A stretch of 64,000 nt of DNA from Kitasatospora atroaurantiaca (GTDB taxonomy: Bacteria > Actinomycetota > Actinomycetes > Streptomycetales > Streptomycetaceae), in the NCBI RefSeq assembly GCF_007828955.1, contig NZ_VIVR01000001.1, positions 2,294,001 to 2,358,000 on the forward strand. Direction: 5' to 3'. Shown piece by piece: positions 1,965 through 63,385 of the stretch. The notes under the pieces were generated by a model. The model did not search any database. It was not told where the DNA came from and saw only the letters and a list, made by a program, of their open reading frames with translations. Each line of letters starts with the position of its first letter. Position 1 is the first letter of the stretch. Both the position numbers and the translations under genes were made by a program.

Positions 1965-2703
1965 CCGACGCGGTGTAGCGGTCGAGGACCAGCCGGACCA
2001 TCGCCCGATGGGCGCCCAGCGGGGCGGCGGTCAGCCAGTCGCCCGCTGCGGCGCCCAGCCGCGCGAAGTCCCCCGGAGCGGTGAAGTAGCCCGCAACGGC
2101 AACGCGCCGGTGGCCCTCGGCACCGAGCCGGGCCACCGCCTCCGCGACGCTAGGGCCGCCCGCCGCGACATAGCCGGGCAGTACGGGTACGCCGAGGCGG
2201 GCGGCGAGCAGCCGGGCCTGGGCCTCGGTGTCGGCGGCCGCGTCCCGGTCCCGAGAGCCGGAGGCGGCGAGGACGACGGCATCGCCCCGGCCTGCGGCCC
2301 CGCCCCAGCCGGCCTCGGCGAGCCGGCCGTGCAGTGCCTCGGTGAGCAGCGGATCCGGCCCCAGCGGGGCCGCGATCACACCGCTGACCTGCGGCGCCGC
2401 GGACAGCGCGGCGGGGATGTCGACCTTGACGTGGTAGCCCCGGCTGAGCAGCAGCGGCACCAGGACGGCGGGCCCGCTCAGCCCGTCCAGCACCTCGGGG
2501 AGCAGCGGCGCGTTGAGCCCGAGGTGGGCCAGGCGGACATCGAGCTCGGGCCGGGCGGCGCGGAGCAGCGCGAGCAGCCGGCGGATCTCGGCGAGCGCGG
2601 CCGGGTCGCGCGAGCCGTGCGCGACCAGGACCAGGGCCGGGCGCCGGGCGGCGTGCAGCACCCGCAGCGGGGCGGCGGTGGCGGGCGGGAGGGTCGGCGT
2701 CAT
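1936..2703 (-). CDS. Sirohydrochlorin chelatase (CbiX/SirB type)
   Basis: A 255-residue cytoplasmic class II chelatase. The N-terminal motif LVLVAHGSRDPAALAEI (~residues 22-38) contains the HGSR metal-coordinating histidine typical of CbiX/SirB. A second half-domain begins at ~residue 125 (VVLAASGSRD), where the histidine is replaced by serine, as in fused chelatases with one active half. It most likely inserts iron into sirohydrochlorin to make siroheme, the cofactor of the nirB product encoded 4 kb away. The ATG at 2703 was chosen because an upstream extension would run into the divergent nitrate-reductase promoter. Cobalt insertion for cobalamin is an alternative. Confidence 0.8.
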   Translation of the reverse strand: MTPTLPPATAAPLRVLHAARRPALVLVAHGSRDPAALAEIRRLLALLRAARPELDVRLAHLGLNAPLLPEVLDGLSGPAVLVPLLLSRGYHVKVDIPAALSAAPQVSGVIAAPLGPDPLLTEALHGRLAEAGWGGAAGRGDAVVLAASGSRDRDAAADTEAQARLLAARLGVPVLPGYVAAGGPSVAEAVARLGAEGHRRVAVAGYFTAPGDFARLGAAAGDWLTAAPLGAHRAMVRLVLDRYTASVSRLVPRAA

Positions 2704-2726
2704 GACAGCAAGCGTCGCCGAGCGCT

Positions 2727-2753
2727 GTTTCCCTGCCGTTGCTCCACCGTCAC
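2727..2753. promoter_or_regulatory. Candidate GlnR box in divergent nitrogen promoter
   Basis: Read on the plus strand, 5-mers GTTTC, GTTGC and GTCAC are each separated by six bases (2727-2731, 2738-2742, 2749-2753). This gives the 11-base periodicity of the streptomycete GlnR site (GTnAC-n6-GAAAC repeats, read on either strand). It lies between the chelatase gene and the nitrate-reductase gene, both fitting GlnR control. One mismatch in the middle element lowers confidence. Confidence 0.45.
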
Positions 2754-2899
2754 GACTGGTTTCCCCGGCCTCACGGGAGCGTGTCCGGGCCCGTGAGCCG
2801 GCTGCCTCACAGCCGCCGAAGGCCGAGGTGAGGGCGGTGTGCGGGGCCCGTAACGTCCGGGCCGCCGCGGCGAAACAGCGTCGTAGCAAGCTGGGCGCC

Positions 2900-4966
2900 A
2901 TGAACGATGCCACCGACACCCACTGCCCCTACTGCGCGCTGCAGTGCGGGATGGGCCTGCGCCGCACCGAGGGCCCGGTCCCGGTCTCGGTGGTGGAGCG
3001 CCCCGGCTTCCCGGTGAACCAGGGCGCGCTCTGCGGCAAGGGCTCCAACGCCGCCGCGGTGCTGGGCCCCGGCGCCCGGCTGACCACGCCGCTGATCCGG
3101 CGGGACGGCGAGCTGCGCCCGGCGAGCTGGCCGGAGGCGCTGGACCGGATCGCCGCCGAGGTGTCGGGCACCGCCGCCTCGTACGGCCGCGACGCCGTCG
3201 GGGTGTTCGGCGGCGGCGGGCTGACCAACGAGAAGGCGTACCTGCTGGGCAAGTTCGCCCGGGTGGTGCTGGGCACCTCGGCGATCGACTACAACGGCCG
3301 GTTCTGCATGTCCTCCGCGGCGGCGGCCGGGATCCGGGCGTTCGGGGTGGACCGGGGGCTGCCCTTCCCGCTGGAGGACATTCCGCGGGCCGGCTGCGTG
3401 ATCCTGGTCGGCGGCAACCCGGCGGAGACCATGCCGCCGTTCGTCCGCTATCTGCGCGAGCTCCAGGAGAACGGCGGCAGGCTGATCGTCGTCGACCCGC
3501 GCCGCACCCGTACGGCCGAGCTGGCCGACCTGCACCTGGCCCCGCGCCCGGGCACCGATCTCGCCCTCGCGCTGGGCATGCTGCACCTGGTGGTCGCGGA
3601 CGGCCGGACGGACGAGGCGTTCATCGCCGAGCGCACCACCGGCTGGGCCGAGACCCGGGCGGCCGCGATGGCCCACTGGCCGGAGCACGTGGAGTCGGTG
3701 ACGGGTGTCCCGCTCCCCCAGCTCCGCGATGCCGTCCGGATGTTCTGCGACGCCGGGTCGGCGATGGTGCTCACCGCGCGCGGCCCCGAGCAGCAGGCCA
3801 AGGGCACCGACACGGTCAGCGCCTGGATCAACCTCTGCCTGGCCACCGGCAACGCGGGCCGCCCGAACGCCGGCTACGGCTGCCTCACCGGCCAGGGCAA
3901 CGGCCAGGGCGGCCGCGAGCACGGCCAGAAGGCCGACCAGCTGCCGGGCTACCGCAAGTTGGACGACCCGGCGGCCCGCGCCCACGTCGCCGCGGTCTGG
4001 GGCGTCGACCCGGACGCGCTCCCCGGCCCCGGGCGGAGCGCGTACGAGCTGCTGGACTCGCTCGGGACGGACGTGAAGGCGCTGCTGCTGATGGGCTCCA
4101 ACCCGGTGGTCTCGGCGCCGCGCGCCGCGCACATCGCGGACCGGCTGCGGTCGCTGGACTTCCTGGCCGTCAGCGACGTGGTGCTCTCCGAGACGGCGGC
4201 ACTCGCCGACGTCGTCCTGCCGGTCACCCAGTGGGCCGAGGAGACCGGCACCATGACCAATCTGGAGGGCAGGGTCATCCTCCGCCGCAAGGCAGTTGAC
4301 GCGCCGGGGGGCGTGCGCAGCGATCTGGAGGTGCTGCACGAGCTGGCCGGGCGGCTGGGCCACGGCGAGGGCTTCCCGACCGAGGCGGAGAAGGTCTTCG
4401 ACGAGCTGCGCCGGGCGTCGAGCGGCGGGCCCGCCGACTACGCGGGCATCAGCTACGAGCGGATCGCCGCCGAGGACGGGGTGTTCTGGCCCTGCCCGTC
4501 GCAGGAGCACCCGGGCACTCCCCGGCTCTTCCTGGACCGCTTCGCGACGCCGGACGGGCGGGCCCGGTTCACCGCCGTCCAGCACCGGCCGGCGGCCGAG
4601 GAGCCGGATGCCGAGTACCCGGTACGGCTGACCACCGGCCGTGTCCTGGCCCAGTACCAGTCGGGCGCGCAGACCCGCCGGGTGGACGCGCTCAACGCCG
4701 CCGCCCCCGGCCCGTTCGTCGAGCTGCACCCGCAGCTCGCCGAGCGGCTGGGAGTGCGGGACGGGGACCGGGTCGCCGTGGTGAGCCGGCGCGGGCGGAC
4801 CGTCACCCCCGCGCGCGTCACCACCGCGATCCGGCCCGACACCGTCTTCATGCCGTTCCACTGGCCGGGCGAGGGCAGCGCCAACCTGCTCACCAACCCC
4901 GCCCTCGACCCGGTCTCGCGGATGCCGGAGTTCAAGGCCTGCGCGGTCCGGCTCGAGCGGGCCTGA
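2900..4966 (+). CDS. nasA: Assimilatory nitrate reductase, molybdopterin subunit
   Basis: A 688-residue cytoplasmic molybdopterin oxidoreductase predicted to reduce nitrate to nitrite. The N-terminus carries the [4Fe-4S] ligands C9, C12, C16 and C45 (CPYCALQC ... GALCGKG). It is followed by the Mo-bis-MGD catalytic domain (GGGGLTNEKAYLLGKFARV; GNAGRPNAGYGCLTGQGN) and a C-terminal dinucleotide-binding domain (~570-688, LTTGRVLAQYQSGAQTRR). No Tat signal is present, as expected for an assimilatory enzyme. The neighbouring flavoprotein, nirB and nirD supply electrons and the next step, nitrite to ammonia. A formate-dehydrogenase-like role is the main alternative, but the context argues for nitrate. 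Confidence 0.85.
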   Translation: MNDATDTHCPYCALQCGMGLRRTEGPVPVSVVERPGFPVNQGALCGKGSNAAAVLGPGARLTTPLIRRDGELRPASWPEALDRIAAEVSGTAASYGRDAVGVFGGGGLTNEKAYLLGKFARVVLGTSAIDYNGRFCMSSAAAAGIRAFGVDRGLPFPLEDIPRAGCVILVGGNPAETMPPFVRYLRELQENGGRLIVVDPRRTRTAELADLHLAPRPGTDLALALGMLHLVVADGRTDEAFIAERTTGWAETRAAAMAHWPEHVESVTGVPLPQLRDAVRMFCDAGSAMVLTARGPEQQAKGTDTVSAWINLCLATGNAGRPNAGYGCLTGQGNGQGGREHGQKADQLPGYRKLDDPAARAHVAAVWGVDPDALPGPGRSAYELLDSLGTDVKALLLMGSNPVVSAPRAAHIADRLRSLDFLAVSDVVLSETAALADVVLPVTQWAEETGTMTNLEGRVILRRKAVDAPGGVRSDLEVLHELAGRLGHGEGFPTEAEKVFDELRRASSGGPADYAGISYERIAAEDGVFWPCPSQEHPGTPRLFLDRFATPDGRARFTAVQHRPAAEEPDAEYPVRLTTGRVLAQYQSGAQTRRVDALNAAAPGPFVELHPQLAERLGVRDGDRVAVVSRRGRTVTPARVTTAIRPDTVFMPFHWPGEGSANLLTNPALDPVSRMPEFKACAVRLERA

Positions 4967-5310
4967 GCATGTCGGCACCCTTCTGGAACTTGAGGGTGAT
5001 CGACGAGATCTCGGTGATTCCCGGGGGATTGACGCAGGCAGCTGAACGTCCCGGTCCCCTCCGTGACCTGCAGCATGAAATCCGTCCGCCACTCATTGAT
5101 GGCCGCCCGGCTCTCCGGTAGGTAACCGGCCGCCCGGGCGAACGGGATTTCCTCCTGCGTATCCGGAACACTCTCGAAATCGCACACGAAGATATGCCGA
5201 GCCCTCGCTTTCCGGCTCACATCCGCGCCCCGCCTCCGCTGAGGCCGAAGTTCCGCCCGCGAAACAGCACCGCACCGGCCGGGTAACACCGCGGACTCAT
5301 GCTCAGAGGC
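4967..5310. other. Gap between nasA and flavoprotein gene
   Basis: About 340 bases with lower GC than the flanking genes. No gene is recognised. One minus-strand frame is open from about 5220 down past 4970 and reads protein-like at its start (HIFVCDFESVPDTQEEIPFA), but it has no homology I recognise and no good ribosome site. The 3' part holds a candidate GlnR box and the promoter of the flavoprotein-nirB-nirD operon. Confidence 0.5.
5250..5287. promoter_or_regulatory. Candidate GlnR box upstream of nitrite operon
   Basis: GTTCC (5250), GAAAC (5261), GCACC (5272) and GTAAC (5283) are spaced exactly 11 bases apart. This matches the GTnAC-n6-GAAAC-n6-GTnAC-n6-GAAAC GlnR arrangement with a few mismatches. 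The centre is about 43 bases before the ATG at 5311, a position compatible with activation of a leaderless transcript starting there. Confidence 0.45.
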
Positions 5311-49969: not shown

Positions 49970-50269
49970 ATGCGTATCCAGGTGACCCGGACCGGCGGCC
50001 TGGCCGGCCTCGCCCACCGTGCGGAGCTGGACACCGCCGAACGCCACGACGCGCCGCACGTCCACGCCCTCGCCCGCGAGGCCGTGGCGGGGGGCCTTCG
50101 CGCCCCCTCGTACGGCGTGCCGGACGGCTTCCACTACGAGATCACCGTGGACGGCCGGACGGTCTACTGCGCCGACCCGAAGCTGAGCGAGTCCCAGCGC
50201 GAGCTGATCTCGCTGGTCCTGCGCGAGGGCGTCCAGCTGTCGGCTCAGCCGAAGCGGCCGTTGACGTAG
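49970..50269 (+). CDS. Emfourin-like inhibitor of the adjacent M4 protease
   Basis: A 99-residue protein beginning [20 protein letters not shown], the N-terminal pattern of emfourin (protealysin inhibitor, M4in). It continues with [20 protein letters not shown] and ends in a helical [17 protein letters not shown]. It lies 79 bases after the protealysin-like gene on the same strand, as in characterised protealysin-emfourin pairs. It presumably keeps the protease inactive inside the cell. The last 25 bases overlap the convergent pstB gene end. Confidence 0.82.
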
Positions 50270-51066
50270 TCGGAGGTGCGCGGGTCGGCCGGGGTGGTGA
50301 ACATCGCCTCGGTCGGGCCGTGTTCGACGATCCCGCCCGGGGTCCCGTGCTCGGCGAGGAAGAAGGCGCACCGGTCGGAGACCCGGTGCGCCTGCTGCAT
50401 GTTGTGGGTGACGATCACGATGGTGACCTCGTGCACCAGCTCCCGGATGGTCTGCTCGATCCGGCGGGTGGAGGTCGGGTCGAGGGCGGAGCAGGGCTCG
50501 TCCATGAGCAGCACCTTGGGGCGGACGGCCAGCGAGCGGGCGATGCACAGGCGCTGCTGCTGGCCGCCGGAGAGCGCCCCGCCGGGCTGGCGCAGCCGGT
50601 CCTGGACCTCGCGCCAGAGGCCGGCCTTGGTCAGGCACTCCTCGACCAGGTGGTCCTTCTCGGCCCGGGAGGCCCGGATCCCCGTGAGCTTGAGGCCGGC
50701 CACCACGTTGTCGTAGATGGACATCGCGGGGAAGGGATTGGGCTTCTGGAAGACCATGCCGATGTCGCGGCGGGCGCTGGTGAGGCGGCGCTCGGGTGCG
50801 TAGATGTCGGAGCCTTCGAGCAGTACCTCTCCCGCGAGGGCGGCGCCCGGGATCAGCTCGTGCATCCGGTTGAGGATCCGCAGGAAGGTGGACTTGCCGC
50901 AGCCGGACGGGCCGATCAGCGCGGTGACCTGCCCGGCGGGCATCGTCAGCGAGACCTGATCGAGGACCTTGCGGTCGCCGAACCAGGCCGAGACGGCGCG
51001 GGCGTCCAGGCTGCCCGCGGTGGTCCGCGGGCCGGGCAGCACGACCGTGCTGTCGATGCTGGTCAT
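50245..51066 (-). CDS. pstB: Phosphate-type ABC transporter ATP-binding protein
   Basis: A 273-residue ATPase of the PstB family. Walker A is [20 protein letters not shown], followed by the Q-loop [20 protein letters not shown] (a PstB hallmark), the signature [16 protein letters not shown], Walker [14 protein letters not shown] and the switch VTHNMQQA. It is the last gene of the Pst/WxL-like locus, 31 bases after the sortase-like gene, and would energise the PstC and PstA subunits encoded at the other end of the unit. Confidence 0.92.
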
Positions 51067-56561: not shown

Positions 56562-59168
56562 TCAGCGGCTCCGCTTGCGCAGCAGCCGCGGGACGAGGAG
56601 CCCGGCAGCGCCCGCGAGCAGCCCGGCGATCAGCGCGCCGAGCAGCAGGTAGCGGAGACCGCCGACCTCGGTTCGGGCGGTACGGGCGACCGGCGCGGCC
56701 GGTACCGTCGGGGCGAGCGTGGTCGGGGTGTGGGAGGACGGAGCCGGCGAGGCGGGCTGGGCGGGCGCGTCCTGCGCGTCCCGGGCCGCCTGGCCGGGCG
56801 GCGCCTCCTCGGGTGGTTGGGGCGCGAGCGGGCCGCTGGGCCGAGGGGCGGGGACAGCCGGCGCCGTCACGGTCTCCGGTACGCCGGCCCGGTCCTCGAT
56901 CAGCTTGGCCGCCGACCTGGTCCGCTCCCGCATCGCCTCGGGCAGCGGTGCGTAGCCCTCGGCGAGCTGCCCGGCCGCGACGCCCGGCGTCTGGCCGTCG
57001 CCCATCGCGTAACGCAGCAGCGCGGCATAGGATTTGCCGCTCTCCCGGTCGAGCGCGGAGGGCACCGTGGCGGCGTAGGTGATGCTGGTCAGCGGGTAGC
57101 CGCCCTTCGCCTTCGAGGCCGGGTCAGCGAGCATCACGTCGGCGACCCCGCTGGGCACGGCCGCTGCGGCCGAGGTGAGCAGTGCGGCGTTGGTGGGCGC
57201 GACGAACTCGCCTGCGGAGTTGCGCAGTCGGGCGGTGCTCAGACCGTACCTGGCCGCCTGCGCGGTGGTGGTCACGGCCATCACGCCACGCAGCCCCTGG
57301 GCCTGCGGCGGGCCCTTCTTGAGTGAGCCGGGCGTGGTGGTGGCGTCCCAGACCGACTTCGCCAGGGTGTCCCCGCGGGCGGCGGCCCTGGCCGCCTCAC
57401 GCATGGTGTTGGAGAGCGGGTGCGAGTCGAGGTTGCACCAGTCCGGGCGGCCGGTGGGATCGTCGGGGAACTTCTGGCAGTAGTCGTCCGGCTTGGGGTA
57501 GTTGGCGTGCAGCCCCTGGAGGCCGTCCCGCAGGAAGGCCGGGTTGACCGAGTCGTGCCACTTCGGGCTCACCGCGCCCTTGAGGAAAGCGGCGGCGTCC
57601 GGGTCGCTCAGCAGCCAGATCCAGACCAGCAGCGCGGCGTCGCTGTCGCCAGTCGGCAGCAGCAGGTCGGGGATTCTGGACGGGAAGTAGAGATCCTTGA
57701 ACTGCGGGTTCAGCTCCAGGAATTCGGGGTCGGAGGTGAGGTCGAGCGGGTTTGCCGCGGGAACATCGGGATCACCCGGGTTGACGGCGTACCGGTAGCT
57801 CTGGGTGAGCAGCTTGGCCACCAGGCGGGGCGTCAGGTTCATGTCCGGGATCCGCTGGCCGTCCTTCTGCCGGATCTCCGGCGGGGTCCGGGAGTAGGAC
57901 TGGCTCTCGATGTCGAAGGCGATGGTGAGCCCGGAGACCGCGAGCGGCGCGTAGACCGGGGTCCGGCCGCGCGCCTGGTACTTCTGGGCCAGCGGGAAGC
58001 CGAGGTAGACCAGCCCCGGGTCGCTGCGTACCAGGCGGGTGCGGGCCAGGGTGTCGGTCGTCTGGGTGTAGCTGAAGATCCCGCCGGCCTGCCGGCAGAG
58101 CACCGGCTGCCAGCGCCAGATCGTCTCGGCGGCCAACTCGCTGCCGGCGGTGGGCCGTTCGATACTGCCGATCGGGCAGGAGAGGCCGACCGGCTCGAAG
58201 TGCAGCGGGACGACCAGGCGCCGGCTCCAGTTGGTGGCGCTGAGCGGCGAGGACTGCAGCTTGGCGGAGTCCCCGGTGGGTGCCTGGCCGTCCACCTCGT
58301 GCTCACCGCGCGGCACGATCACCAGCCAGCAGCGGCGGCCCTCGGCGAACGGGCCCGGCGCGCCCTTGGGCGTCTGGCCGCAGCCCAGGCCGGGAGCCTC
58401 CATACCGGTCTGGATCTCGAAGAACAGCTGCCCGGTGCCGTCCGCGCGGGTCGGCGCGAAGGGCACCTCGTTGGTGGACTGCACGTCGTAGAACTGGCTG
58501 GTGCCGTCGGTCTCCGCCGGGGCGCCGGTGGCGGGCCGGAAGGGGGCGTAGACGTTCTGGTTCTCCCCGGTCGGCTTCCGGGTCTCGGCCGGATCCACCA
58601 GCGTACGGCCGTAGTTGAGCTGCCTGCTGGGCACGTACGCGCCGCCGCGGCTGTCACCCTTGGTCGCACCGTACTGGCACTGCTCGCGGTCCGGCCCGGT
58701 GCCATCGTCGCCCCAGCACTGCATGAACTCGAGGTAGTTCTGGCCGAAGGACATCGGACTGGGCCAGGTCGGCCTGCCGCCCTTCCAGGTGATCCCGACC
58801 ACCTGGTTGACCAGGTGGGTGGTCTGGCCGACGGTCACCTCGAGGCCGGCGAACTCGCCCTGGCCCCGGACGGTGACCGGCTCCGGGCTGACCGCGGCGG
58901 GCCGGACGGCGGTCGCCCCCGCCTCGGGCTGCGCGGCTCCGGGCCGGGCCGCCGGGGCGGGGGCTGGGGCAGGGGCCGCATCGATCGGGGCCGGGGCGCC
59001 GGTGATCGGGTCGACCGGGATCTGCGGGCTCGCCTCGGACGCCGCGGCGACCCCGGCCGGGGGCCCGCCCGGGTCGGCGGAGAGCGCCGCGCCGCCGGCC
59101 GTGGCCAGCACCAGGGTGAGCGCACCGGCCGTACGCAGCGCCCGCCGGACCGTCCCGGACCGTCTCAT
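56562..59168 (-). CDS. 868-residue membrane-anchored surface protein with PstS-like features
   Basis: A signal peptide (RTAGALTLVLATAGGAALSA) and a Pro/Ala-rich linker lead to a large extracellular region with many cysteines (FMQCWGDDGTGPDREQCQYG; WCNLDSHPLSNTMREAARAA). Stretches such as LRGVMAVTTTAQAARYGLST and GGYPLTSITYAATVPSALDR resemble PstS-family segments, but the protein is more than twice their size. A Pro-rich stalk and a C-terminal helix (YLLLGALIAGLLAGAAGLLV) with an Arg/Lys tail anchor it. It overlaps the upstream pstA-pstS frame by four bases (ATGA). I do not recognise the family; a large accessory receptor for the importer is an inference. Confidence 0.65.
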   Translation of the reverse strand: MRRSGTVRRALRTAGALTLVLATAGGAALSADPGGPPAGVAAASEASPQIPVDPITGAPAPIDAAPAPAPAPAARPGAAQPEAGATAVRPAAVSPEPVTVRGQGEFAGLEVTVGQTTHLVNQVVGITWKGGRPTWPSPMSFGQNYLEFMQCWGDDGTGPDREQCQYGATKGDSRGGAYVPSRQLNYGRTLVDPAETRKPTGENQNVYAPFRPATGAPAETDGTSQFYDVQSTNEVPFAPTRADGTGQLFFEIQTGMEAPGLGCGQTPKGAPGPFAEGRRCWLVIVPRGEHEVDGQAPTGDSAKLQSSPLSATNWSRRLVVPLHFEPVGLSCPIGSIERPTAGSELAAETIWRWQPVLCRQAGGIFSYTQTTDTLARTRLVRSDPGLVYLGFPLAQKYQARGRTPVYAPLAVSGLTIAFDIESQSYSRTPPEIRQKDGQRIPDMNLTPRLVAKLLTQSYRYAVNPGDPDVPAANPLDLTSDPEFLELNPQFKDLYFPSRIPDLLLPTGDSDAALLVWIWLLSDPDAAAFLKGAVSPKWHDSVNPAFLRDGLQGLHANYPKPDDYCQKFPDDPTGRPDWCNLDSHPLSNTMREAARAAARGDTLAKSVWDATTTPGSLKKGPPQAQGLRGVMAVTTTAQAARYGLSTARLRNSAGEFVAPTNAALLTSAAAAVPSGVADVMLADPASKAKGGYPLTSITYAATVPSALDRESGKSYAALLRYAMGDGQTPGVAAGQLAEGYAPLPEAMRERTRSAAKLIEDRAGVPETVTAPAVPAPRPSGPLAPQPPEEAPPGQAARDAQDAPAQPASPAPSSHTPTTLAPTVPAAPVARTARTEVGGLRYLLLGALIAGLLAGAAGLLVPRLLRKRSR

Positions 59169-61948
59169 CGCCGCTCCTCCCGGCTCCGGGCCGCACGGCC
59201 CGCGACCAGCGGCGGCAGCACGATGACCCCGCCCAGCAGCGCGCCCGCGATCAGCATCAGCGCGTGCCGCAGACCGCTGCCGGCCGTCGCGGAGATGGCC
59301 ACGGAGTCCGCGCTGACCTGCTGGCCGCCGCCCGCCGCTCCCCCGTCGCCACCGCCACCGGTCAGCGCCGGGTCACCGCCGGCCGCCGACCCCCCGGCCG
59401 CGCCGCCCGTACCGCCTGCGGCCCCTGCCCCACCCGCACCGCCGGAGCCGGCCGCGCCGCCGGAGGCCGAGCCCGCGCCACCGCCCGAGCCGGTGCCCAC
59501 CGGCGTGGTCTGCTTCGCGCCGCCCGTACCCGTCCCGCACTGGGTGGCCGAGCCCTTCCGGTCGCAGTCCTGCGGCGGATCGGCGCTCTCCGCGTACGGG
59601 TTGTGCCCGCCCGGGCCGAAGGTCGGGTTGGTGCACTTCGAGGCGTCGAAGGCGCGTGCCTCGCTGCCGGGGACCTTGGCGAACTGCTCGAAGGCGGACT
59701 TGACCAGCTGCGGCGTCAGCGGCGAGTAGCCCAGCCCGTCGGCCTGCTTCTGGCCCTCGCAGAGGAAGTAGTAGCCGAAGGCGGCCAGCGTCCGCCCCTT
59801 GTCCCTGCTGAAGGTGCCGACCTCGGAGGTGTGCACCGCCATGTAGCTGTAGCTGGAGAGCGGGTACGCGCTGCGCTCCGTGCTGTCGTACACGCCGTCG
59901 AGCTGCTGGGTCAGGTCGGACGGGTTGATCGCGGCGCTCTTGAGCGCCACGGAGACGTTCCTGCCGTTGGGCTCGACGTAGTAGCCGGACCGGTTCAGCA
60001 TCTTGACGACCGGGAAGTTGCTGTTCAGCGCATACGAGTACTCGACGTAGGTGATGGCGCCGACGTTGGACTCGTTGGCGACGGCGTTGGCGACGGCCAC
60101 CGAGGTGCCCAGCGCCTGCCAGGTGCTGCCGTTCAGCAGCGGGAAGAACGAGGTCGTCCCGCACGGGGTGTGCCGCGGGGTGCTGCGGCAGTAGTCGTCC
60201 CAGATGTTCTGCTGCCGCTTGCTCATCCAGGTGGTGAGCTGCGCCGTGGTGCCCGAGCCGTCCGAGCGGACCACCGGGCGGACGGCCACGTCGGGCATCT
60301 TCAGGCCGGGGTTGTCGGCCTGCACCGCGGGGTCGTTCCAGCGGGTGATCCTGCCCGTGAAGATCTTGGCGATGACGTCCCCGGAGAGCCGCAGGTTGGT
60401 GACCCGCTGCCCGCCGATCTTCAGGTTGTACATGAACGAGGTGCCGCCGGCGACGATCGGCAGATAGGCCATCGGCCAGGGCGGCGGAGCGTCGAACTGC
60501 CCGCCGTCGGTGAGCCCGTACGGGATCTCGGAGACCGCGAAGTCCGTCGCCCCGTTCTTGAACTGGTTGCGCCCGTACGAGGAACCCTGCGCGTCGAAGT
60601 CGATGGTCATGCCGTACTGCCGGACGTTGCTGATCCAGGAGTCCATCGCGTTGCTGCTCCAGGTGGAGCCCGCGCCGCTGATCCGGCGGTAGTCCTCGGC
60701 CGCCGCCCGGGGTGCCGCACCGAGCAGCAGCGAGGAGCAGATCAGTGCCAGCGCGGCCAGCACGGTGACGGTACGGGAGATCACGGGTTCCTTCCGGGAG
60801 GGTCGGGCTGTCGCCATCCGCCGCACGTCCTCGGCCGAACGGCGGGCGCGGCGGAGTTGCTGACGTCTCGTCAGCTCGCCGGGGCCTCGGCCGCCGAGGG
60901 TCCGGGCGACGAGGAAGAGCAGCAGCACCAGGGTCAGCAGCACCGCCGCCGCGCCGAAGGCGCGCGAGACCTGCAGCTGGGAGGGGAACTTGACCAGCGT
61001 GAAGGCCATCAAGGGCAGCGAGGCCTGCGGGTCGTGCAGCGGGTCGAGGTTGAGGTTCTTGGTGTAGCCGGAGCAGAGCAGCACCGGCGAGGTCTCGCCG
61101 ATCCCGCGGGCCGCGCCCAGGATCACCGCGGTGGCCAGCCCGGAGCGGGCGCTGGGAAGCGTCACCGTCCAGACCGTGCGCCAGCGGCTCGAACCCAGGG
61201 CGTACGAGGCCTCCTTGAGCGAGGCGGGGACAAGGCGCAGCACCACGTCGGTGGCCCGGATCAGGATCGGCAGCATCATCACCGAGAGCGCCACGCCCGC
61301 CGCCAGGCCGGAGCGCGAGAAGCCGAGGGCGAGCACCAGGACGGCGTAGATGAAGAGCCCGGCCAGGATCGACGGCAGCGCCGTCATCGCCTCCACCAAG
61401 GTGCGGACCAAGCGGCTGAAGCGGCCGGGGACTTCGCTCAGGAAGACGGCGCAGCTGATCCCGAGCGGGATGGTGATCAGCAGGGAGATGGTGATCTGGG
61501 TGAGCGTGCCGATCAGGGCGTGCAGCGCGCCGCCCTTGGTCAGCGGGTCGGCGGGGCCGGCCTCGGAGAGGTCCTGGGTGTAGAAGTTGGTGTGCCGCAG
61601 CGCGTCGAAGCCGTGCAGGAAGACATAGCCGACCGTCCAGACCAGCACCCCCAGCAGCAGCGCCGCGATGCTGTGCACCACGGCCGAGGCCAGCCGGTCG
61701 CGTACGGCGAGCGCGCTCTCGTCCCGGGAGACCAGCAGCGCGTAGAAGCCCAGGAAGGCCAGCCAGGTGCAGACCGCGAAGCCGACGCCGCCGCTGAACG
61801 GGGCGAACCGCTGGAACAGCAGCGAGCTGAAGGCGAGCGCGCCGGCCAGGCTCCACAGGAAGGCGTAGCGGTCACTTGCCCGGCGGGCGCCGGTCCGGCG
61901 GCGGGGCTGCTCCACGGCGGGGGCCGGGCCGGGGACGACGGTCGTCAT
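59165..61948 (-). CDS. PstA permease fused in frame to PstS-like binding protein
   Basis: One open frame of 927 codons. Residues ~1-365 are a PstA permease: helices from AFLWSLAGALAFSSLLF, and the ABC loop SYALGSSRWRTVWTVTLPSA with LGAARGIGETSPVLL. It runs without a stop through GGRGPGELTRRQQLRRARRS into a second hydrophobic helix (TVTVLAALALICSSLLLGAA, ~390-410). A phosphate-binding domain follows (ISGAGSTWSSNAMDSW; RSDGSGTTAQLTTWM). After a Gly/Ala-rich linker a C-terminal helix ends it. The topology is consistent with a tethered binding protein. A strong internal ribosome site before the GTG at 60784 may also yield separate PstS (539 residues). The start overlaps the pstC stop. Confidence 0.8.
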   Translation of the reverse strand: MTTVVPGPAPAVEQPRRRTGARRASDRYAFLWSLAGALAFSSLLFQRFAPFSGGVGFAVCTWLAFLGFYALLVSRDESALAVRDRLASAVVHSIAALLLGVLVWTVGYVFLHGFDALRHTNFYTQDLSEAGPADPLTKGGALHALIGTLTQITISLLITIPLGISCAVFLSEVPGRFSRLVRTLVEAMTALPSILAGLFIYAVLVLALGFSRSGLAAGVALSVMMLPILIRATDVVLRLVPASLKEASYALGSSRWRTVWTVTLPSARSGLATAVILGAARGIGETSPVLLCSGYTKNLNLDPLHDPQASLPLMAFTLVKFPSQLQVSRAFGAAAVLLTLVLLLFLVARTLGGRGPGELTRRQQLRRARRSAEDVRRMATARPSRKEPVISRTVTVLAALALICSSLLLGAAPRAAAEDYRRISGAGSTWSSNAMDSWISNVRQYGMTIDFDAQGSSYGRNQFKNGATDFAVSEIPYGLTDGGQFDAPPPWPMAYLPIVAGGTSFMYNLKIGGQRVTNLRLSGDVIAKIFTGRITRWNDPAVQADNPGLKMPDVAVRPVVRSDGSGTTAQLTTWMSKRQQNIWDDYCRSTPRHTPCGTTSFFPLLNGSTWQALGTSVAVANAVANESNVGAITYVEYSYALNSNFPVVKMLNRSGYYVEPNGRNVSVALKSAAINPSDLTQQLDGVYDSTERSAYPLSSYSYMAVHTSEVGTFSRDKGRTLAAFGYYFLCEGQKQADGLGYSPLTPQLVKSAFEQFAKVPGSEARAFDASKCTNPTFGPGGHNPYAESADPPQDCDRKGSATQCGTGTGGAKQTTPVGTGSGGGAGSASGGAAGSGGAGGAGAAGGTGGAAGGSAAGGDPALTGGGGDGGAAGGGQQVSADSVAISATAGSGLRHALMLIAGALLGGVIVLPPLVAGRAARSREERR
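60782..60795 (-). promoter_or_regulatory. Internal ribosome site and GTG within pstA-pstS frame
   Basis: On the minus strand GGAAGGAA (60788-60795) precedes a GTG at 60784 at good spacing, directly before the signal-like helix of the PstS part. It is in the same frame as pstA. It therefore could restart translation to make free PstS in addition to the fusion. Confidence 0.6.
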
Positions 61949-62925
61949 GAGCTGGCCCCCGAGCGGCTGCGGGCGACCACGGCGGCCGCGGCGAAGTTGA
62001 CCACCAGCGTGAGCAGGAAGAGCGTCAGCCCCGCGGCCATCAGCGCGGAGATGGAGAAGTCCGTCGAGTCGCCGTACCGCAGCGCGATCAGCGGGGCGAC
62101 GGCACTGCCGCCGGTCTGCAGGATGTGCGGCTGGATCTCGAAGTGCATGGAGAGGATCAGGTACACGGTGATCGTCTCGCCGAGGGCCCGGCCGAGGCCG
62201 AGCATCGTCCCGCCGATGATCCCGCCGCGCCCGAACGGCAGCACCACCGCGCGGATCATCCCCCAGCGGGTGCTGCCCAGGGCGTACGCGCCCTCGCGCT
62301 CGCCCGCCGGGGCCTGGTCGAACACCTCGCGCATGATCGAGCACATGATGGGCGTGATCATGAAGGCGACCACGGTGCCCGCCATCAGGCTGGACGCGGT
62401 GTAGATCAGCGGCGGGTTCAGCGGGTCGTCCACGTCCACACCGTTGACGTGCAGCAGCGGGATCCAGCCGAGGTAGGTGGAGAGCCAGCGGGCGGTGCCG
62501 GCCAGCTTGTACTGCAGCAGCACGAAGCCCCACACGCCGTAGACCACGCTGGGCACGGCCGCCATCAGGTCGACCATCCCGATCAGGGTGCGCTTGAGCC
62601 GCCGGGGCGCGTACTCGCTGATGTACAGCGCGCTGCCGAGCGCCAGCGGTACGGCCAGGCAGACGGCGATGCCGCCGATCAGCACCGTGCCGACCAGTAC
62701 GGCGGCGATGCCGAACTGGCCGTGGCCGCCGTCCGGGTTCCAGGCCTCGGTGGTCAGGAAGGAGAGACCGGCGGTGCGCAGCGCGGTGCTCGCACGGACG
62801 GCGAGGTAGCCGCCCACCCCGAGCATCACCAGCAGGACGAGAGCGCCGCTGCCACGGGCCCAGGCCAGGAAGATGCGGTCCGGCAAGCCCGGGTCGGCCG
62901 TCAGCGCACGCGGGGAGTCCGTCAC
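61945..62925 (-). CDS. pstC: Phosphate-type ABC transporter permease
   Basis: A 326-residue membrane subunit with about six helices. Family blocks include LVGTVLIGGIAVCLAVPLAL, the loop REGAYALGSTRWGMIRAVVL with LGLGRALGETITVYLI (EAA-type contact to PstB), and MAAVPSVVYGVWGFVLLQY. The GTG at 62925 overlaps the stop of the upstream small gene (GTGA) and starts just before conserved sequence. It pairs with PstA encoded immediately downstream. Confidence 0.9.
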   Translation of the reverse strand: MTDSPRALTADPGLPDRIFLAWARGSGALVLLVMLGVGGYLAVRASTALRTAGLSFLTTEAWNPDGGHGQFGIAAVLVGTVLIGGIAVCLAVPLALGSALYISEYAPRRLKRTLIGMVDLMAAVPSVVYGVWGFVLLQYKLAGTARWLSTYLGWIPLLHVNGVDVDDPLNPPLIYTASSLMAGTVVAFMITPIMCSIMREVFDQAPAGEREGAYALGSTRWGMIRAVVLPFGRGGIIGGTMLGLGRALGETITVYLILSMHFEIQPHILQTGGSAVAPLIALRYGDSTDFSISALMAAGLTLFLLTLVVNFAAAAVVARSRSGASS

Positions 62926-63352: not shown

Positions 63353-63385
63353 GAACAGTGAACGCCGGACACGCGACGCCTGAAC
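63353..63385 (-). promoter_or_regulatory. Candidate PhoP (PHO-box) repeats
   Basis: Read on the minus strand, GTTCAGGCGTC (63375-63385) and GTTCACTGTTC (63353-63363) are exactly 22 bases apart, two 11-base units of the streptomycete PHO box (GTTCACC core). The middle unit does not match. The site is 75-107 bases upstream of the first gene of the Pst-type locus, where PhoP control would be expected. Confidence 0.4.

Follow-up and report, generated by a model that had tools for sequence, protein, structure and literature searches.

A second Pst cluster with pstA and pstS in one frame

The 64,000-nucleotide stretch of the Kitasatospora atroaurantiaca genome analysed here (contig NZ_VIVR01000001.1, positions 2,294,001 to 2,358,000; the window) carries a second Pst system in addition to the canonical one, which lies at 4.29 Mb. 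Read along the minus strand, the cluster begins with a PHO-box-like repeat, a small conserved protein, pstC, a pstA–pstS fusion and an 868-aa surface protein, and continues with PBP_like_2, Ig-like, WxL-interacting-protein-like and sortase-domain proteins before reaching pstB. Its features are as follows, in window coordinates:

63359..63385, minus strand: PHO-box-like repeat GTTCA-N17-GTTCA; one match in the window against 0.06 expected
61945..62925, minus strand: pstC; TIGR02138 240 bits (cut-off 196); ATGA overlap with pstA
59165..61948, minus strand: fused pstA–pstS gene; 927 aa in one open frame; 11 fused orthologues
60896..61696, minus strand: PstA permease core, aa 85–351; TIGR00974 218 bits (NCBI cut-off 193)
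60785..60895, minus strand: basic linker, aa 352–388, the former pstA C-terminal tail, predicted to be cytoplasmic
60782..60795, minus strand: old pstS start with its internal ribosome site, both retained; GGAAGGA at 60795–60789, GTG at 60784–60782
60713..60769, minus strand: former signal sequence and putative internal export helix, aa 394–412, from hydropathy
60698..60706, minus strand: AxA signal-peptidase-like site, aa 415–417; present in 11/11 fused sequences
59759..60706, minus strand: PstS phosphate-binding domain, aa 415–730; PF12849 (PBP_like_2) 137 bits (cut-off 27); TMt 0.88 to 8ods
59204..59260, minus strand: C-terminal membrane helix, aa 897–915, after a Gly-rich stretch, from hydropathy; also found in split PstS relatives
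56562..59168, minus strand: 868-aa surface protein; TIGR00975 E 1.4e-13 at aa 625–757; ATGA overlap with the fusion
50245..51066, minus strand: pstB ATPase of the cluster; TIGR00972 340.4 bits, slightly below the cut-off of 343.2; PF00005

An earlier note on this DNA had described PstA and PstS in one open frame at 59165–61948 with no stop between them. The frame and its extent held, and the strand, which the note did not give, is minus: translation runs from ATG 61948 to TGA 59165 without an internal stop and yields, in order, PstA, the basic linker, the former signal sequence, the PstS domain, a Gly/Ala-rich stretch, the C-terminal membrane helix and a basic tail. The PstC and PstA permeases were identified at equivalog level, with TIGR02138 and TIGR00974 both above their cut-offs; the PstS equivalog model, TIGR00975, scored slightly below its cut-off on the fused protein (191.8 against 205 bits). 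A structure model was built from 39 window and locus sequences. The PstS domain was mostly modelled at pLDDT > 90, the linker and internal helix at about 36–63, and the Gly-rich part also at low confidence. Searches with the model gave as best matches a solved PstS (8ods, E 2.5e-19, TMt 0.88) and a solved PstA (9k3x_A, E 3e-11).

Six core permease helices are expected, of which five were called from hydropathy and the sixth is assumed from known PstA structures. Because two additional hydrophobic helices lie N-terminal to the core, the permease should have about eight helices, with its C-terminal end in the cytoplasm. The linker that follows is basic (12 K/R versus 4 D/E in 37 aa), in keeping with the earlier description of a basic cytoplasmic linker. 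According to the same note, the former signal sequence can act as a seventh helix that places the binding domain outside; the helix stands, but would rather be about the ninth, and PstS has a C-terminal anchor as well. As split relatives share that anchor, PstS does not owe its place at the membrane to the fusion.

For the substrate, we took the phosphate contacts of E. coli PstS to be T10, F11, S38, D56, R135, S139, G140 and T141. Alignment to these residues showed that six of the eight are kept (T10, S38, R135, S139, G140 and T141), with F11 replaced by W and D56 by E. We infer phosphate as the likely substrate and hold it at that grade because two contacts differ from E. coli.

Around the fusion, the genes are tightly packed. 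The pstC/pstA junction and that between the fusion and the 868-aa gene are ATGA overlaps, and among the tight junctions from the small first gene to the 868-aa gene only pstA/pstS lacks a stop. The pstC gene presumably starts at a GTG overlapping the preceding gene, its open frame extending to 63210. That preceding gene, the first after the box (~63277–62922, minus strand), encodes a small conserved protein of ~118 aa, which we take to resemble a YegP/DUF1508-type domain, and shows an apparent GTGA overlap with pstC. The 868-aa protein has a signal sequence, a C-terminal helix and no Pfam match, and its similarity to PstS is limited to aa 625–757; in Saccharothrix (L012), as in K. indigofera (L008), the pst genes are followed by related proteins. 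Further along, the catalytic His and Cys of sortases seem to be missing from the sortase-domain protein (52786–51063, minus strand), which reads LLGR and LVTG where their motifs are expected; beside the WxL-interacting-protein-like gene, it is a possible pseudo-sortase. A missing ATPase was suspected because no pstB adjoins the fusion, and was ruled out by the pstB gene at the end of the cluster, where the TIGR00972 match spans 50248–51009.

The PHO-box-like repeat was present in all eight orthologous loci, two of which have one changed base (GTTAA in the first unit). Streptomyces PHO boxes consist of 11-nt repeats whose most conserved core is GTTCACC (PMC6283541), and PhoP may bind the repeat in the window.

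Conservation and origin of the fusion

Because the genome is GC-rich, an open frame by itself would count for little as evidence of a fusion, and it is conservation of the frame that makes the case. An orthologue was found in 8 of 70 Kitasatospora genomes, including that of the window, and was fused in every case; PstA in the other seven is 76–88% identical to the window's. Linkers in these eight vary from 36 to 63 codons, in frame every time and without a stop. Linker pN/pS was ~0.3–0.4 in the closest pairs with the window, most of the linker being old pstA tail. A search across the order, covering 392 genomes, found the fusion in three more, all from one other genus of the family; relatives from the family's largest genus, probably Streptomyces, had split pstA and pstS, as did those in Saccharothrix and two actinobacterial metagenome-assembled genomes. 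Elsewhere in the phylum, the search of 396 genomes yielded no fusion besides that of the window, with a close-enough relative in only nine; no plasmid record matched 80% of the query at any one place.

A tree of 80 PstA+PstS sequences placed 11 of the 12 fused rows in one clade (SH-aLRT 99), so that these eleven are essentially one event; separate origins in the two genera were considered and are unneeded. The 12 fused rows together need two changes. The twelfth (L070) stands apart at a paralogous, type-2 locus that is 50% identical; this separate pstA–pstS fusion (2085–4982 in genome G009, a single draft genome) has GGAGG-N7-ATG inside.

That the genes are really separate and joined only by a sequencing error or a chance open frame is hardly credible, for although distant relatives are split, 11 independent assemblies from two genera run through the junction without a stop, in frame despite changes in linker length, which excludes a hidden stop or indel as the cause. 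The earlier note had regarded orthologues that are always split as a second ground for doubt; in fact every close orthologue is fused, and split genes appear only at greater distance. As judged from these genomes, the window holds a genuine, old, inherited pstA–pstS fusion in a second Pst importer.

The split loci point to how it arose. In nearly all of them, a GTGA, ATGA or TGATG overlap sets pstS in the −1 frame with respect to pstA. At the junction, the window reads CGG AAG GAA CCC GTG ATC, in which the old GTGA persists but is now read as Val-Ile in the pstA frame. In the ancestor, pstA and pstS would have been translationally coupled, the pstA stop overlapping the pstS start; in a common ancestor of Kitasatospora and the sister genus, the pstA frame would then have been shifted close to its end into that of pstS, bypassing the pstA stop (TGA) and turning the pstS start codon into an internal codon. 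Because split relatives have pstS in the −1 frame, an indel that shifted the frame past the TGA would most simply account for the fusion. The series from coupled pair to fused gene is thus visible in living genomes: split relatives with overlaps, fused genes that keep the old start, and a sister genus in which it has been erased.

Other layouts were also encountered. One type-2 locus (L086, genome G025) has pstS in the +1 frame and a pstA frame open for 526 aa across pstS, owing to a frameshift or an assembly error. At another locus (L130, genome G198), pstS and pstA share a frame and are kept apart by one TGA, a step short of fusion. A related pstA–pstS locus, ~50% identical, occurs in 43 of 70 Kitasatospora genomes besides the canonical pst operon and is mostly split by TGATG or ATGA overlaps; four genomes carry both this locus and the fused one.

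Products and processing of the fused chain

The internal ribosome site at 60784, which the earlier note had suggested could give both fused and free forms, was found as GGAAGGA followed by GTG 60784–60782. Translation from this GTG would give 539 aa and 55 kDa, matching the smaller of the two products forecast at ~95 and ~55 kDa; the fused chain was computed at 96.6 kDa. An AAGG-N5-GTG element lies at the old pstS start in 8/8 Kitasatospora orthologues, amid sequence that varies in content and length, and it is plausible that this genus makes both a fused chain and a free 55-kDa PstS, the retained site probably adding the separate protein. In the three sister-genus genomes, no start codon with a convincing SD was found between permease and helix, and in one of them the first start codon comes no earlier than mid-helix, but the PstS domain is intact. 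Lacking a recognisable internal site, the sister genus must obtain its PstS from the fused chain, on which it would rely since losing the site; to the extent that genomes can tell, no other observation speaks as strongly for a working fused product.

We infer the topology, export and phosphate transport of the fused chain along the following lines. A single chain would comprise the permease, a basic cytoplasmic tail, the former signal sequence as an internal export helix and a PstS domain outside the cell, the last additionally held by its own C-terminal helix. PstS would thus be made in cis, 1:1 with the permease, and would pass phosphate on to PstC/PstA, with PstB of the cluster supplying the energy. 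The account as a whole (a genuine inherited fusion in a second Pst phosphate importer, derived by frameshift and made as one chain) is one that we regard as highly probable.

The chain may be cut after export, because the AxA signal-peptidase-like site, which reads AAA in the window, is retained, a possibility that the earlier note did not raise. The chances are about even that at least part of the fused chain is cut in this way. Signal peptidase acting after AxA would divide the chain into a permease of 44 kDa that carries one additional helix and a PstS of 52 kDa beginning at EDY, which would remain anchored because the PstS of split relatives has a C-terminal membrane helix; the fusion would then merely fix stoichiometry and otherwise be nearly neutral. 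Such processing could equally well be right or wrong. The AxA-like motif occurs in 11/11 fused sequences, including the genus without an internal start, the hydrophobicity of the helix resembles that of signal sequences in split relatives (fused versus split, KD p 0.37), and PstS brings its own C-terminal anchor. AxA is, however, cheap in Ala-rich sequence, the hydrophobic stretch of ~18–19 residues is long for a signal, and fused helices are slightly more membrane-like on an insertion-energy scale (p 0.011, uncorrected, including for kinship). Between them, the two scales give no clear proof from helix hydrophobicity that the anchor stays uncut. The cytochrome b/c1 polyprotein fbcH of Bradyrhizobium is a known parallel to such a cut chain; a literature search on bacterial polyproteins cut by signal peptidase turned up no paper.

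About as likely, and only a little short of an even chance, is a permanently uncut fusion, which is also how the earlier note read it. The former signal sequence would stay in the membrane as a helix, and the permease would be served by its own tethered PstS, whose local concentration would be very high. The same plan is seen in OpuA, whose SBD comes after a hydrophobic anchor and a linker of 11 aa (PMC11065425), and both the length of the hydrophobic helix and the fused-only sister genus fit it; retention of the AxA motif in all sequences and the tether that the C-terminal anchor already provides do not. More tentatively, PstS may have an anchor at each end and a permanent tether to PstA in cis, while the internal ribosome site sets a second, free pool of PstS. 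If so, the clade would offer a natural comparison of tethered with free phosphate capture, and of how Pst transport couples to Pho signalling, the free form having been kept in one genus and lost in its sister. Because both the cut and the uncut route leave a membrane-held PstS next to the permease, the fusion may be nearly neutral.

It is unlikely that in Kitasatospora working PstS comes almost solely from the internal start, with fused read-through chains as a minor by-product: the start element is kept in all eight orthologues despite the variable linker, but, because no stop exists, every ribosome that completes pstA continues into pstS, and the sister genus has an intact PstS without such a site.

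Relation to known importers

SBD–permease fusions are already known in other ABC families, and the earlier view that a PstA–PstS fusion is unusual for Pst agrees with our literature search, which found no description of one, although such absence is weak evidence. A Pst importer with its binding domain in cis would be a tool for studying the effects of tethering on phosphate uptake and Pho signalling, and lets one ask whether signal peptidase undoes such fusions. It also carries a warning for annotation, as a pstS contained within pstA may go missing from the list of genes.

The cluster resembles the PstSCAB systems of E. coli (9k3s/9k3x) and Streptomyces (pstSCAB) in its PstC, PstA, PstS and PstB families, the PstS fold, most phosphate contacts and the PHO-box-like repeat upstream. 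It differs in that PstA and PstS form one gene, two ligand residues are changed, PstS carries a C-terminal membrane helix and is not periplasmic or a lipoprotein, and the order is pstC–pstA/S–…–pstB with extra surface proteins between.

With OpuA of Lactococcus lactis and related SBD-fused importers, it shares an SBD placed C-terminal to a type I permease, from which a short linker and a hydrophobic helix separate it; the single frame for both is conserved throughout the 11-sequence clade. The permease and SBD families differ, however. The 7ahc chain, which we take to be OpuA, matched only the generic permease region (E 6e-4), and membership of the OpuA family was rejected, since PstA and PstS fit far better than any other family. 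The OpuA homodimer has two SBDs, but here there would be one SBD per importer because PstA pairs with PstC; the second, C-terminal anchor, the internal ribosome site and the AxA motif also set the fusion apart. GlnPQ likewise links SBDs to the permease, but belongs to an amino-acid family and carries tandem SBDs on the permease's N-terminal side. Also comparable are the frame transitions catalogued by GeneTack, which include translationally coupled ABC-transporter gene pairs whose homologues can be fused in another genome (PMC3711429). A frame transition between adjacent coupled genes resembles the stop/start overlap of the split relatives, whereas in the window a single frame has taken the place of the overlap.
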